From Chloroflexota bacterium (GTDB lineage: Bacteria > Chloroflexota > Anaerolineae > Anaerolineales > Villigracilaceae), in NCBI GenBank assembly GCA_020217065.1, contig JAIWOB010000052.1, forward strand, positions 1-10,000: a DNA stretch of 10,000 nucleotides. The letters run 5' to 3'. The notes under the pieces are model-generated. The model saw only the letters and a list, made by a program, of their open reading frames with translations, did no database searches and was not told the DNA's origin. Of the stretch, positions 930 to 5,205 are shown piece after piece. Position 1 is the stretch's first letter. Every line of letters starts with the position of its first letter. The position numbers were made by a program, and so were the translations under genes.

Positions 930-3731
930 TTACTTGCCTTCCCGCTCCCATAACTGCCTTGCAATCAATTCCTGGTCAACGGGGAGTTTATCCACCCGCA
1001 CGCCGACGGCATTGTAGATGGCGTTGGTGATAGCGGGGATGGTCGGAATGCTGGAGACTTCGCCGACGCCCTTCGCGCCGTAGGGTCCCGCCTCGACGGG
1101 ATGCTCGACGATGATGGACGTGATTTCAGGCGTGAGCATGATGCCCGGCACGCGGTAGCGGGCAAGGCGGTCGGTGACGACCTGTCCGTCTTCGACGATG
1201 AACTCTTCGGTCAGGCAGTGACCCAAGCCCATCATCACGCCGCCTTCGACTTGTCCCTGCAAGCCGAGCGGGTTGATTGCCATGCCCACATCGTTGGCGG
1301 AGATGACCTTCAACACGCGCACTTCGCCGGTCAATTTATTGAGTTCGATTTGGGCGGCTTGGGCGGCAAAGGAGAAAGCGAAGTGCATATCGCCGCCTGC
1401 GCCGAGGGGCTGGGTCTTCGGCGCTTCATATTCGTAGCGGACGCAAGGCTTCTGCCCGGCGGCGGTCATTTCCTTGTAGACTTCGGCGAAAGTCATCGAA
1501 TGCCCGTTGACGTGGACAATCCCGTCCTCGAAGCGAATTTGTTCAGGGCGCACGTCATATTTTTCCGCCATCGTTGCGGAAATTTGGTCGCGCAAGGTCT
1601 TTGCCGCAAGGCGCGAGGCGTTGCCCGTCACGAAGGTCTGACGGGACGCGGTGGTGGGTCCGCCGTTGGGGGTCAGGTCGGTGTCCATGACGAGGACGCT
1701 GACCTTATCGGGAGTCACGCCCAATTCCTCGGAGACGACCAGCCGCATGACGGTAACCAGTCCCTGACCAAGTTCGGCGGCGGAAGAACGAACCTGGAAT
1801 GTGCCGTCTTCGTAGAGTTCCACGTCTGCGCCGGAGATGTCGGGCGCGCCGCCGCCAAGTCCCGTGTTTTTATAAGCGGCAGCGAAGCCCCAAACACGGA
1901 CGAGGTTCGGGTTGGCAGGGTCTACTTTCGGGGTGAAGGGGTCGGGGTCAAGGCGTTTCATCTCCGCCTCGACCTTGTCAATGCATTCGGTCAGACCCAC
2001 CGAGTCGCGCAGGACTTGTCCCGTATTGGTCACGCTGCCGACGCGCAGGGCGTTCATGCGGCGCAGTTGGATTCTATCCATGCCGAGTTTTTCGGCGAGC
2101 ATGTCCATCATCGATTCCACGGCAAAGGCGGATTGCAGCACGCCGAAGCCGCGAAACGCCCCCGCCGGCGGGTTGTTGGTGTACATGGCGTAGCAGTCGG
2201 CGCGGACGTGTTCGATGTCGTAAGGTCCAGCCGAGTGCGTGGTGGCGCGGGTCATCACCTTTTCGCCGAGCGAGGCGTACGCGCCCGTGTCGCCGTAAAG
2301 TTCGGTTTGCATCGCCACAATGCGCCCGTCTTTCTTCGCGCCGACCTTGACGGTAATCTGCGTGGCGTGGCGCTTCGGGTGAACAATCAAGCTTTCCTGG
2401 CGGTCAAAGAGCAGCTTGACGGGACGCTGGGTGACGTTGGCAAGCATGGCGGAATGAATCTGCCCCATGATGTCTTCCTTGCCGCCAAAGCCGCCGCCCA
2501 TCAGTTGACCAATCACGCGGACGCGGGATTCCTCCCAGCCCAAAGCGCGGGCGACCTGCGCGCGGTCCTGGTACGGGATTTGCGACCCGACGTAAATGTT
2601 CATGCGTCCGTCGGGGAGCGGTTCGGCGATGCTGCATTCAGGCTCGATGAAGGCATGGTCGTTGGGCGGCGTGTGGAAGGTGTGTTCGAGAATCACATCC
2701 GCTTCGGCGAAGCCCTTGTCCATGTCGCCCTTGCGGACTTTGATGTGCTTGAGCAAATTGCCCTTCTCATGGAGTTGAGGCGCGCCGTCCTGTTTCGCCA
2801 TCACGGCGTTGGTGACGACGGGCTGAAGGTCGAACTCCGCTTCGATGAGGCTGACGGCTTCTTCCGCAATCGCCTGCGTCTCGGCGGCGACAATCGCCAG
2901 CGCGTCGCCGACATAGCGGACGCGTTCGCCAAGTCCCACCAGGATGGGCCAGTCGTAGACGACCAAGCCGTGATTCTTTTCGCCGGGGATGTCTTCAGCC
3001 GTCAAAACGGCGGCGACGCCGGGCAAGGCTTTGGCTTTGGAAATGTCGAGTTTCTTCAGAAAGCCATGCGGAATCATCGCCCGTTTGACTTTGGCGAACA
3101 ACATGCCGTCGAGGACGATGTCGTCGGTGTAGATTGCCGCGCCTGTCACCTTCTCCACCGCTTCAGGGCGATGGAATTTGTGTCCGACGGCTTTGTGCGA
3201 GCCGCCCCTCGCCGAGTCTGGGATATGAGTCGGCTTTTGGACAGGCTCTCCCGTGCGAAGCGCCTGCGCCGCCGCGATAATCGCCCGCTCGATGGATGGA
3301 TAACCCGCGCAGCGGCAGAGGGTATCTTTGAGCGCAAAACGAATTTCTTCGCTGGTGGGGTTTGGGTTGCGTTTGAGCAGGGCATAGGCGGTCATGATTT
3401 GTCCGGGAATGCAGAATCCGCATTGGACAGCGCCATGCTCCACGAAGGCTTCCTGCAATGGATGAAGTTTCATTTCCTCGTGGACGCGCTGCGCCAGCCC
3501 TTCGATGGTGACGATGGTCTTGCCGTCGGCGCGCTCGGCGGGATAGACGCAGGACATGGTCGGCTCGCCGTCCACCAGAACGGTACACGCGCCGCACTCC
3601 GCTTCTTCGCATCCGATTTTTGTGCCGGTAAGATGGAGCCGCATACGAAGGAGAGAAGCCAGCGTCTCGCCCGGCAGGGACTCAAAGGTTTTGTTGACGC
3701 CATTAACTGTAAGATTTATTTTGTTAGTCAT
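930..3731 (-). CDS. Xanthine dehydrogenase-family protein, fused [2Fe-2S] and molybdopterin-binding subunit
   Basis: A 933-residue cytoplasmic molybdenum hydroxylase subunit that would hydroxylate a purine or similar heterocycle. Residues 1-80 form a plant-type [2Fe-2S] domain (Cys41, 46, 49, 61). Residues 85-160 form the second [2Fe-2S] domain (Cys104, 107, 139, 141). From about 185 onward come the Mo-binding domains: SQ at 383-384, GGGFGGKE ending at Glu419, FRGFG at 526-530, ELGQG at 653-657, and catalytic Glu891 in GAKGVGE. Glu419 and Arg495 match bovine Glu802 and Arg880; Arg495 to FRGFG has the same spacing as in the bovine enzyme. There is no internal FAD domain; the gene at 4267-5139 supplies it. 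The ATG at 3731 has GAGG five nt upstream. An in-frame GTG 54 nt earlier would translate part of a dispersed repeat and is rejected. An aldehyde oxidoreductase is the main alternative. Confidence 0.93.
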   Translation of the reverse strand: MTNKINLTVNGVNKTFESLPGETLASLLRMRLHLTGTKIGCEEAECGACTVLVDGEPTMSCVYPAERADGKTIVTIEGLAQRVHEEMKLHPLQEAFVEHGAVQCGFCIPGQIMTAYALLKRNPNPTSEEIRFALKDTLCRCAGYPSIERAIIAAAQALRTGEPVQKPTHIPDSARGGSHKAVGHKFHRPEAVEKVTGAAIYTDDIVLDGMLFAKVKRAMIPHGFLKKLDISKAKALPGVAAVLTAEDIPGEKNHGLVVYDWPILVGLGERVRYVGDALAIVAAETQAIAEEAVSLIEAEFDLQPVVTNAVMAKQDGAPQLHEKGNLLKHIKVRKGDMDKGFAEADVILEHTFHTPPNDHAFIEPECSIAEPLPDGRMNIYVGSQIPYQDRAQVARALGWEESRVRVIGQLMGGGFGGKEDIMGQIHSAMLANVTQRPVKLLFDRQESLIVHPKRHATQITVKVGAKKDGRIVAMQTELYGDTGAYASLGEKVMTRATTHSAGPYDIEHVRADCYAMYTNNPPAGAFRGFGVLQSAFAVESMMDMLAEKLGMDRIQLRRMNALRVGSVTNTGQVLRDSVGLTECIDKVEAEMKRLDPDPFTPKVDPANPNLVRVWGFAAAYKNTGLGGGAPDISGADVELYEDGTFQVRSSAAELGQGLVTVMRLVVSEELGVTPDKVSVLVMDTDLTPNGGPTTASRQTFVTGNASRLAAKTLRDQISATMAEKYDVRPEQIRFEDGIVHVNGHSMTFAEVYKEMTAAGQKPCVRYEYEAPKTQPLGAGGDMHFAFSFAAQAAQIELNKLTGEVRVLKVISANDVGMAINPLGLQGQVEGGVMMGLGHCLTEEFIVEDGQVVTDRLARYRVPGIMLTPEITSIIVEHPVEAGPYGAKGVGEVSSIPTIPAITNAIYNAVGVRVDKLPVDQELIARQLWEREGK

Positions 3732-3733
3732 AG

Positions 3734-3740
3734 TTTCCTC
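3734..3740 (-). promoter_or_regulatory. Ribosome binding site fixing the Mo-subunit start
   Basis: On the - strand this reads GAGGAAA, with GAGG five nt before the ATG at 3731. It supports that ATG over the in-frame GTG at 3785, which lies inside the repeat arm 3764-3789 and would add 18 residues with no family resemblance. Confidence 0.75.
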
Positions 3741-3763
3741 GTGAGTAAAACATAGAAAATTTG

Positions 3764-3789
3764 AACCACAGAGACACAGAGACACGGAG
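3764..3789 (+). repeat. Left 26-bp arm of the GxxExxY cassette
   Basis: Starts AACCAC and ends in GACACGGAG, followed by a T-rich stretch (six T, G, four T). The arm plus T-rich stretch closely matches the left half of the solo element at 8150-8214, which shows they belong to one family. Confidence 0.75.
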
Positions 3790-3808
3790 TTTTTTGTTTT
3801 ACCTCTTG

Positions 3809-4225
3809 TTAGAGGACTCGGCGGTAAATTCCTTCTTTCAAAACAGGCGCGTTGAAATTGAGCAGCAAACCGACGTGGATTCCCGTCAGGCGCATGTAAG
3901 TCAATAATTGCGCTTCGTGAACGGGGATGACCCTTTCGACCGCTTTGAGTTCCACGATTACCCGTTTGTCATAAATCAGGTCGATGACGTATCCAGCGTC
4001 CAGATTGATTCCTTTGTAGTTCAGAAGCAAATCAACCAGTCTCTCGAATGGGATATTCCTCAATTTGCTTTCATACTCCATGCAAACCTGATATGCAGAC
4101 TCCAACAAACCCGGTCCAAGCGTGCGGTGAACCTCAATCGCTGCGCCGATAATCCTGTCGGTCAACTCCTTTTCCCGGAGTGGAATGACATGATGATTAT
4201 GCGGAACGGGAAAGTTACGCTGCAT
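3809..4225 (-). CDS. GxxExxY protein (PD-(D/E)XK nuclease-like family)
   Basis: A 138-residue protein. It carries the family's naming motif, Gly39-x-x-Glu42-x-x-Tyr45 in GPGLLESAY, after the typical helix ELTDRIIGAAIEVHRTLG (20-37). Asp82, then Glu92-Leu-Lys94 (VELKAV), followed by Gln106 and Tyr110, fit the PD-(D/E)XK nuclease-like fold to which the family (Pfam PDDEXK_3) is assigned. The full length agrees with the family. Biological role is not established, and I do not assign one. The ATG has GAGG seven nt upstream. It sits within an operon for a molybdenum hydroxylase but between inverted repeat arms, so its position is probably due to insertion and not to shared function. Confidence 0.9.
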   Translation of the reverse strand: MQRNFPVPHNHHVIPLREKELTDRIIGAAIEVHRTLGPGLLESAYQVCMEYESKLRNIPFERLVDLLLNYKGINLDAGYVIDLIYDKRVIVELKAVERVIPVHEAQLLTYMRLTGIHVGLLLNFNAPVLKEGIYRRVL

Positions 4226-4242
4226 GATTCAACCTCAAGAAT

Positions 4243-4268
4243 CTCTGTGTCTCCGTGCCTCAGTGGTT
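4243..4268 (-). repeat. Right 26-bp arm of the GxxExxY cassette
   Basis: Inverted copy of the arm at 3764-3789 (22 of 26 matching). Its outer end overlaps the TAA stop of the FAD-subunit gene (4267-4269), so the junction of the repeat lies exactly at the end of that gene. Confidence 0.75.
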
Positions 4269-5139
4269 AAGCCGCTCTTCCCCACGCGGTTTCCAGCGCA
4301 TCCTTGAACAAGCCGCCGACGATGTGACGGCGGTAGTCTGCGCTGGCGCGGCGGGCGCTGGTGCGGAATTTGGCTTGGGCAAGCAGGGCTTCGAGCGCCC
4401 CGCTGAAATTTTCTTCGGTCAGGGGTTTTCCGCGCAGGAAGGCTTCCGCTTCGGCGGCGCGGAAGGGAGTGGAGCCGCCAGGTCCGACAGCGACGCGAAC
4501 CTCCTTGAAGAGGTCGCCTTCGCGTTCAAGCCAGACCGAGCAATTCAGAATCGGAAGGGCAACTCCCTGCGGGCGCATGATGCGTTTAAAGCAGGAGGCT
4601 TGTCCTTTCCTGGCTTGCGGCAAATAGAACCCGACGATGATTTCCCTGCTCTTGTCGAGGGAGGATTTGCCCGGACCGGCAAAGAGCGCGGTGAAAGGCA
4701 TTCGGCGGGTTCCCTCCGGGCTGGCGACTTCGGCTTGGGCGTTGAGCGCGGTCAGGGCGATGGTTCCGTCGGCGGCGGGGAGGGCGTGCGCCACGTTTCC
4801 CCCGATGGTGGCGGCGTTGCGGACTTGCGGTCCGGCGATTAAGTTTGCGGCTTCGACCAGGGCTTGGGCGTGAGCCGCAACCAGCGGGTCGGCGGCGACG
4901 CGGTTGACCGCCACAGCCGCGCCAATGAAGAGTTCGTTTCCCCTTAGTTCGAGCCGTTTCATTTCGTCTACAAAGGTCAAATCAATCAACGTATGCACAG
5001 GGGCGTGGCGTCCCTGCTTCAAGTCCAGCATCAAATCCGTTCCGCCGGCAATGGGGACAGCCGGAGGCGGCGCGGATACGAGGGCTTGGACAGCCTCTTT
5101 CACGGAAGAGGGTCGCACGTATTTCTGCCAAAGGTTCAT
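4267..5139 (-). CDS. FAD-binding subunit of xanthine dehydrogenase-family enzyme
   Basis: A 290-residue protein of the CoxM/XdhB type that accepts electrons from the [2Fe-2S] clusters of the Mo subunit and passes them to NAD+ or another acceptor. Two FAD-binding motifs are present: AGGTDL at 31-36 and TIGGN at 111-115. The C-terminal CO-dehydrogenase flavoprotein-like domain ends with the typical SADYRRHI (266-273). Length is normal for a stand-alone subunit. The ATG at 5139 has AAAGGA eight nt upstream; an earlier in-frame TTG at 5202 would add 21 non-conserved residues and is rejected. It precedes the Mo subunit gene in transcription order, with the GxxExxY cassette between. I cannot tell the electron acceptor from the sequence. 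Confidence 0.92.
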   Translation of the reverse strand: MNLWQKYVRPSSVKEAVQALVSAPPPAVPIAGGTDLMLDLKQGRHAPVHTLIDLTFVDEMKRLELRGNELFIGAAVAVNRVAADPLVAAHAQALVEAANLIAGPQVRNAATIGGNVAHALPAADGTIALTALNAQAEVASPEGTRRMPFTALFAGPGKSSLDKSREIIVGFYLPQARKGQASCFKRIMRPQGVALPILNCSVWLEREGDLFKEVRVAVGPGGSTPFRAAEAEAFLRGKPLTEENFSGALEALLAQAKFRTSARRASADYRRHIVGGLFKDALETAWGRAA

Positions 5140-5205
5140 AAGTGGCGTCCTTTCTTTTTTGGGGCGGCGGAACTTTTCGATGGGGCGCTGCGCGCAACCC
5201 AACGC

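Follow-up and report, generated by a model that had tools for sequence, protein, structure and literature searches.

The DNA analysed here (the window) is a 10,000-nt stretch on contig C113 of a 1.6 Mb Chloroflexota assembly that is 66% complete. A 505-bp cassette at 3764-4268 was found at the junction between the genes for the FAD subunit and the molybdopterin-binding (Mo) subunit of an enzyme of the xanthine-dehydrogenase/CO-dehydrogenase type. The Pfam assignments of the two host genes as FAD and fused 2Fe-2S/Mo subunits agree with the preliminary description, which had placed the cassette between genes of one enzyme. The following features were assigned:

930..3731, minus strand: fused 2Fe-2S and molybdopterin-binding subunit, host gene 3′ of the cassette (PF00111, PF01799, PF01315, PF02738, PF20256)
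3755..3764, no strand assigned: probable outermost part of the unit on the left side, reading outward CAAATTTT (compare the TAAA..TTTT consensus described below)
3765..3789, plus strand: left arm, 3′ of the GxxExxY gene, with three units ACCACAGAG / ACACAGAG / ACACGGAG pointing inward
3809..4225, minus strand: GxxExxY gene, 138 aa, PD-(D/E)XK nuclease-like (TIGR04256, 4e-40; PF13366)
4233..4236, minus strand: putative ribosome binding site GAGG of the GxxExxY gene, from sequence reading
4243..4267, minus strand: right arm, with units ACCACTGAG / GCACGGAG / ACACAGAG read on the minus strand and its outer end over the FAD stop codon (4267-4269)
4267..5139, minus strand: FAD subunit, host gene 5′ of the cassette, with ATG at 5139 (PF00941, PF03450)

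For the FAD gene, a longer open frame is possible from a TTG at 5202. The region 930-3731 was seen to be a single reading frame in which a 2Fe-2S domain is fused to the molybdopterin subunit.

The inverted arms (3764-3789 and 4243-4268) were alike at 22 of 26 bases, the same count as given previously, and none of 300 shuffles that kept the dinucleotides of 200 bp on each side reached this value (best 19 of 26). A repeat search returned a 21-nt core at 86%, and each arm was seen to consist of three short units of the CAC-N-GAG type. Further points of the preliminary description were also borne out: the right arm overlaps the FAD stop codon at 4267-4269, the GxxExxY gene has a G+C content of 0.482 compared with 0.624 in the FAD subunit and 0.602 in the fused 2Fe-2S/Mo subunit, and a putative ribosome binding site of its own, GAGG, is located 7 bases before its ATG. 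A scan of 3700-4400 for promoters of the sigma-70-like type gave none, a result that carries little information with 0.5 expected by chance. As no such promoter was seen and the cassettes mostly lie in sense at or near the upstream stop codon in operon junctions, the host operon probably transcribes the cassette.

The GxxExxY protein matched TIGR04256 with 136.8 bits (cut-off 35; 4e-40) and PF13366 (PDDEXK_3) with 134.1 bits (cut-off 22). Family-conserved residues were E42, D82, E92, K94, Q106 and Y110; D82, E92 and K94 were invariant in an alignment of 17 sequences, and in an alignment of 75 sequences D82 and K94 were invariant and E92 was present in at least 90%. A structure model (pLDDT 91.7) gave matches to nucleases in a fold search. 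With a predicted catalytic D and E/D-x-K motif in the core fold, the protein would belong to the PD-(D/E)XK superfamily, and the family match, the conserved D82, E92 and K94 and the nuclease fold matches support the nuclease-like character proposed earlier. PDB contained no sequence relatives at E values up to 1, and the VIA-align structure matches included no family that settles the function. The GxxExxY gene was the only family-matching frame between the window arms, and no transposase as in an insertion sequence was found there. The own assembly holds one GxxExxY gene. Among the matches listed, TIGR04256 genes were found in 54 of 61 genomes of the genus and order and GxxExxY genes in 52 of the 57 genomes of the genus, and a protein search returned at least 8000 matches. 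Eight of 72,556 plasmid records matched, and a virus search gave eight pattern matches and no relative. In the open-access literature searched, neither a role for GxxExxY genes nor a description of GxxExxY arm cassettes was found.

The preliminary description had proposed comparing FAD-Mo sites with and without the cassette. FAD orthologues were detected as 36 loci in 57 genomes, leaving out a 345-base FAD fragment (G063), and in 34 of the 36 the stretch as read showed the Mo gene adjoining the FAD gene. Six of these 34 junctions contained a GxxExxY cassette with arms, 10 were tight with 10-11 bases from stop to ATG (e.g., TAGGATTAATGGTATG), and 18 contained other inserts of 56-1189 bp by script count, several of them with apparent right-arm remnants. 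The earlier estimate that the two genes would lie about 30 bp apart in the absence of the cassette was therefore not upheld in relatives. Neither the FAD nor the Mo proteins seem to be altered at their ends. Comparison of the cassette tree with the FAD tree rejected an FAD-style grouping of the G016 copy (AU test, p = 0.0002), on 113 columns and for a group chosen after the conflict had already been seen. Between the own genome (G000) and G001, the cassette proteins were 85% identical, the FAD proteins 70% and the start of the Mo protein 82%, whereas the corresponding values between G000 and G016 were 68, 78, and 84%. The tree conflict together with these identities suggests that this junction has lost the cassette, had it replaced or gained it again, within the little sequence that 113 columns offer. 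Cassette copies from the same site clustered together in the tree, which suggests that the elements move rarely.

Some of the other FAD-Mo gaps were inspected by eye. Loci L041 (G078) and L066 (G029) contain a 279-aa ORF with a GIY-YIG nuclease-like start, preceded in L041 by a half arm, TAACCACTTAGGCACA. In L058 (G065), the gap holds a 313-aa Fic-like ORF (HPFIDGNGRTAR) followed by an apparent right-arm remnant. Palindromes of other kinds were seen in the gaps of L044, L047, L050, L052, L057, L067, and L068, e.g., GTAGGTCAGGC...GCCTGACCTAC and GTAGGGCGGGTT...AACCCGCC.

The flanks of related GxxExxY genes in the genus and order were then compared for shared arms, as had also been proposed. The locus set, which left out 18 listed GxxExxY matches of the genus/order search, comprised 137 loci; removal of five duplicates gave 132 distinct loci, and after five with short flanks were dropped, 127 loci from 50 genomes were scored, the window included. 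When the upstream flank was scored against the reverse complement of the downstream flank, the median within-locus score was 21 vs. 12 for flanks swapped between loci, and in 101 of the 127 loci the inverted arms beat 99% of single-base shuffles. Only 35 of these loci had their own pair as the top score of the row, since loci of one lineage share a motif. A single motif for all arms was rejected, as the window motif (up to 4 mismatches) was found upstream in 3 of 31 loci, each lineage having its own motif. The arms generally consist of about three units of 8-10 bp each. Eight motif families, which include CACNGAG, CGCNGAG, CACNAAG, CGCNAAG, CRCNGAT, and CRCGAAT, were found on both sides of 146 of 193 genes, and 47 genes were unclassed. 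In the gene flanks, CACNGAG units pointed inward 146 times and outward 10 times, and CACNAAG units 226 and 119 times, the outward CACNAAG units being explained by some cassettes abutting gene-less palindromes.

Arm similarity was found to track protein identity (Spearman 0.33; none of 500 permutations as high, best 0.066) in 11,821 pairs drawn from 158 armed loci at different sites and in different genomes. Two sites counted as different when no common neighbour was recognised, and some same-site pairs with short flanks may therefore remain. Median arm similarity was 0.89 in the 94 pairs with at least 70% protein identity vs. 0.30 in pairs below 40%. One genome, G015, contains two cassettes at unrelated junctions, before a 3-methyladenine-glycosylase-like and before an SpsF-like gene (named by eye). 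The two were alike over 87% of 39 bp in a left-arm block and over 77.6% of 441 bp in a block running from the gene to the right arm, these blocks being separated by a stretch of unequal length, and the likeness stopped about 8 bp beyond the right arm. Among the 155 genus genes examined of 207 matched, 107 cassettes had a same-strand frame of at least 130 codons that stopped within -60..+12 bp of an arm (median -3 bp), and six had only an opposite-strand frame near the arm. The presence of arms at most scored relatives, a motif that follows the protein lineage, a likeness in G015 that ends just beyond the arms and the cassette-free alleles of the FAD-Mo junction show gene and arms, as far as sequence comparison can tell, to be one transferable unit, inherited and moved together, which largely upholds the unit postulated in the preliminary description.

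A cross-phylum comparison was made on the best 80 of 577 loci, of which 76 could be scored; the query favoured the clade nearest the window. In this set, the median score was 22 for own arms vs. 12 for swapped arms, and 32 of the 76 own pairs exceeded 95% of swapped pairs, which share the motif. At least two inward units on both sides were found at 46 of the 76 loci and at none of 58 control windows about 700 bp away; they were absent in 30 of the 76, and outward units on both sides were found in 10. Armed homologues among these best 80 of 577 loci spanned 12 named phyla: Chloroflexota (10 of 12 loci), Planctomycetota (10 of 10), Pseudomonadota (12 of 18), Bacteroidota (3 of 6), Acidobacteriota (2 of 8), Spirochaetota (2 of 2), Cyanobacteriota (1 of 2), Verrucomicrobiota (1 of 7), Thermodesulfobacteriota (1 of 2), and single loci from Armatimonadota, Nitrospinota, and Electryoneota; a single locus of an unranked KSB1 genome was armed as well. 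No such arms were found at the single archaeal, Hydrogenedentota, Sumerlaeota, Cloacimonadota, and Fidelibacterota loci of the same best 80.

Most genomes of the genus contain dispersed palindromes that have such arms but no gene. With search patterns in which two outer units enclose a middle of 28-58 bp, 497 CACNGAG and 426 CACNAAG palindromes were counted in the 57 genomes (pattern matches, some nested) and none with a reversed pattern, i.e., 923 pattern matches of the two kinds vs. 207 gene matches. As many dispersed copies with the arms of a gene-bearing element, they qualify as MITE/REPIN-like derivatives. The own genome contains three CACNGAG palindromes and one decayed copy, all without a gene. 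With kinship ignored, and with absence of a matching gene possibly wrong for some genomes as 155 of 207 genes were examined, the median number of CACNGAG palindromes was 12.5 in the 22 genomes with a CACNGAG-armed gene vs. 2 in the 35 without (p = 2.6e-7), and that of CACNAAG palindromes was 8 in the 25 genomes with a CACNAAG-armed gene vs. 2 in the 32 without (p = 2.6e-4). Crossed comparisons gave p = 0.006 for CACNGAG and 0.08 for CACNAAG palindromes, and the CACNGAG association gave p = 1e-6 when two MITE-inflated genomes were removed. Independent pairs pointed 3.4 the same way and 0.5 the opposite way of 5, too few to test. Two genomes, G023 and G070, have a CACNAAG-matching gene and zero CACNAAG palindromes. 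A gene end was located within -60..+12 bp of 36 of 57 gene-less palindromes vs. 145 of 1140 random positions.

Unit conservation was examined in 20 non-redundant palindromes, obtained from 40 palindromes of 66-72 bp by removing 20 near copies. The inner CAC and GAG were conserved, with 0.97-1.83 bits and with A in place of one G of the second unit in 42%, and the second base of each spacer was near random. A hairpin under base-pair selection was not supported, since the spacers agreed between arms at 20 of 80 positions with 0.305 expected. The conserved cores and non-complementary spacers favour recognition of the individual units by a protein. In 68 palindromes, a search for target duplications at the arm ends found none at offsets up to 25 bp, the exact ends not being fixed. 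Outside palindromes of a related kind, a TAAA..TTTT consensus was found; this consensus and the approximately 8 bp of likeness beyond the arm in the G015 pair indicate that the window unit probably extends several bases past its ACCAC ends.

At least 40 near-identical palindromes (96-100%) were found in G033. Where the flanks were read, these copies lay inside an element that is longer, has the ends GGCTCTT...AAGAGCC and shows 8-bp duplications (e.g., CATAAATT, TTCAAAAT), and G015 contains a similar MITE-like carrier of near-identical palindromes. The bursts in both genomes look like ordinary transposition and were rejected as proof of self-movement, as the copies ride in MITE-like elements. 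The two families concerned (L325-L353 in G033 and L328-L344 in G015) contain an internal CACNGAG palindrome; their 8-bp duplications were seen by eye.

Such carriers fit an alternative in which the palindromes are independent repeats that owe their movement to some unrelated, undetected transposase, with the GxxExxY gene as a passenger between arms. Palindromes in genomes with no matching gene among the genes examined (e.g., 14 CACNGAG palindromes in G070 and 13 in G078) fit it too, as do insertion sites that take many unrelated inserts. However, one of eight motifs flanks 146 of 193 genes on both sides, and 46 of the 76 homologues scored among the best 80 of 577 cross-phylum loci have two or more inward units on either side, a regularity too great for a chance passenger; the arm motif also tracks the protein lineage. 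Furthermore, the genes of another cassette type found at the same kind of site, the S23 genes described in the next paragraph, use another arm set. We consider the passenger explanation unlikely.

The junction between E1-beta and E2 genes (named by eye) is one of these sites. An E2 match was found in 43 genomes, from which 30 loci were taken and 28 were readable. The junction was empty in one genome (TGATGGAGAGAACTT), contained gene-less palindromes in seven (four CACNAAG and three CGCNAAG), GxxExxY cassettes in four and S23-family (PF05635) cassettes in 16, the positions of the last agreeing with those of the PF05635 search. In the sequences inspected, these inserts start at the stop codon and end just before the E2 ribosome binding site. 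PF05635 matches were found in 55 of the 57 genus genomes, with up to 16 per genome and five in G000, and at 30 of these loci (L295-L324) genes for S23/IVP four-helix-bundle proteins lay between inverted arms (own median 17 vs. 11 swapped). Their units, e.g., GGTTAGCGATTAGCAGTTAGC, TTGATGGTTGGTGG or CAGTGATCAGT, are other than those of GxxExxY genes, and a common set of arms for both gene families was rejected for the 30 S23 loci examined, whose arms are different. A further site, L003 on contig C143 of the own genome, corresponds to a loop of a molybdopterin-oxidoreductase-like protein (by eye). In relatives (L355-L361), different palindromes, including the CATTGCGAGG family, were found at the same codon position, with the reading frame kept wherever both flanks could be read.

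GxxExxY cassettes share a junction with S23 genes, which are what 23S rRNA intervening sequences carry, and this would fit a second alternative, an RNA-level element in which the arms would pair and RNase III would excise the cassette from the operon message, leaving the host proteins unharmed. The intervening sequence in the Coxiella 23S rRNA is described as a 0.4 kb element with one gene and terminal inverted repeats that is cut by RNase III, and the origin of such sequences is called unclear (PMC4990558). The GxxExxY cassettes resemble it in measuring about 0.4-0.5 kb, in holding a single small gene between terminal inverted repeats and in lacking a transposase, and in their mostly sense orientation behind a gene they would suit an RNA-level element, the intervening sequence being tolerated in an essential transcript (PMC4990558). 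They differ in being located in protein-coding operons, in carrying a PD-(D/E)XK gene and CAC-N-GAG unit arrays and in that gene-less copies are common. Against excision from RNA, the arm spacer bases are not complementary, no Rfam family was found at gathering scores in the window or at three palindrome loci, and the model accounts for the tolerance of inserts and not for their spread, so that we give it little credence. At the window locus, the site is an FAD/Mo gene junction and no 23S rRNA helix, and the gene belongs to PF13366 and not to S23. The protein is a GxxExxY protein, and the cassette is neither an insertion sequence with a known transposase nor a 23S intervening sequence. Equally improbable is an autoregulation or defence locus in which the arms would be operators bound by the protein and the palindromes would serve as regulon or decoy sites: the unit core shows the conservation of a binding site and palindromes associate with matching genes, but palindromes swap at the same in-frame codon position and at operon junctions, and the cassette is patchy with a tree that conflicts with the host-gene tree.

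The explanation that we favour, and hold to be somewhat better than an even chance, is that the 505-bp stretch represents a widespread mobile element of very small size, made up of arms and a nuclease gene, whose protein would read the units and make a break that starts copying. The conserved core, the variable unpaired spacers and the arm motif that follows the protein lineage suggest that the GxxExxY protein reads the arm units. The nuclease break would then set off copying, either of the whole element or, in trans, of gene-less palindromes, and the copies would enter new junctions or ones that already bear a palindrome, in a homing- or REPIN-like manner, and we infer that it is the nuclease that drives the movement of the unit.

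Several known systems can be compared with this element. RAYT/REPIN systems combine a Y1 tyrosine transposase with matching short inverted repeats and many gene-less palindromes per genome. The GxxExxY cassette likewise joins a small gene to matching inverted repeats and to many gene-less palindromes in the genome, but its enzyme has the modelled fold of a RecB/Cas4-like nuclease, which sets it apart from a Y1 tyrosine transposase. Among free-standing homing endonucleases there is a PD-(D/E)XK type, and the cassette resembles these enzymes in its single nuclease gene, in sites that are filled or empty in relatives and in a tree in conflict with that of the host gene. Judged from sequence, the filled and empty alleles and the tree conflict are consistent with a homing endonuclease, whereas the GxxExxY gene brings its own inverted arms and is found at many unrelated sites. 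MITEs share with the palindromes the short, non-autonomous copies in many places; the GxxExxY-type palindromes differ in that no target duplication was found at the arm ends, as far as these can be placed, and in that unit sequence and number vary. Compared with Cas4 and RecB, the gene is a solo 138-aa gene with an N-terminal GxxExxY motif, and no cas gene was found beside it among the window genes tested with profiles. By analogy, a RAYT/REPIN or a homing system may serve as the working likeness.

A wider reading, which we offer tentatively and consider possible though less probable than the mobile element itself, is that such elements without a transposase form a class extending across the domain, whose lone RecB/Cas4-like nuclease would recognise the arrays of short units in the arms and spread its own gene and the palindromes into operon junctions. 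Its co-evolving arm lineages would parallel those of the S23 cassettes with heptamer-like arms, and the 23S intervening sequences would be a special case.

Should gene and arms form a single mobile unit, one explanation would cover both a large annotated protein family and a large class of intergenic palindromes, and the origin of the 23S intervening sequences would become testable with relatives. Annotation is affected as well, as some palindromes add in-frame stretches to proteins.
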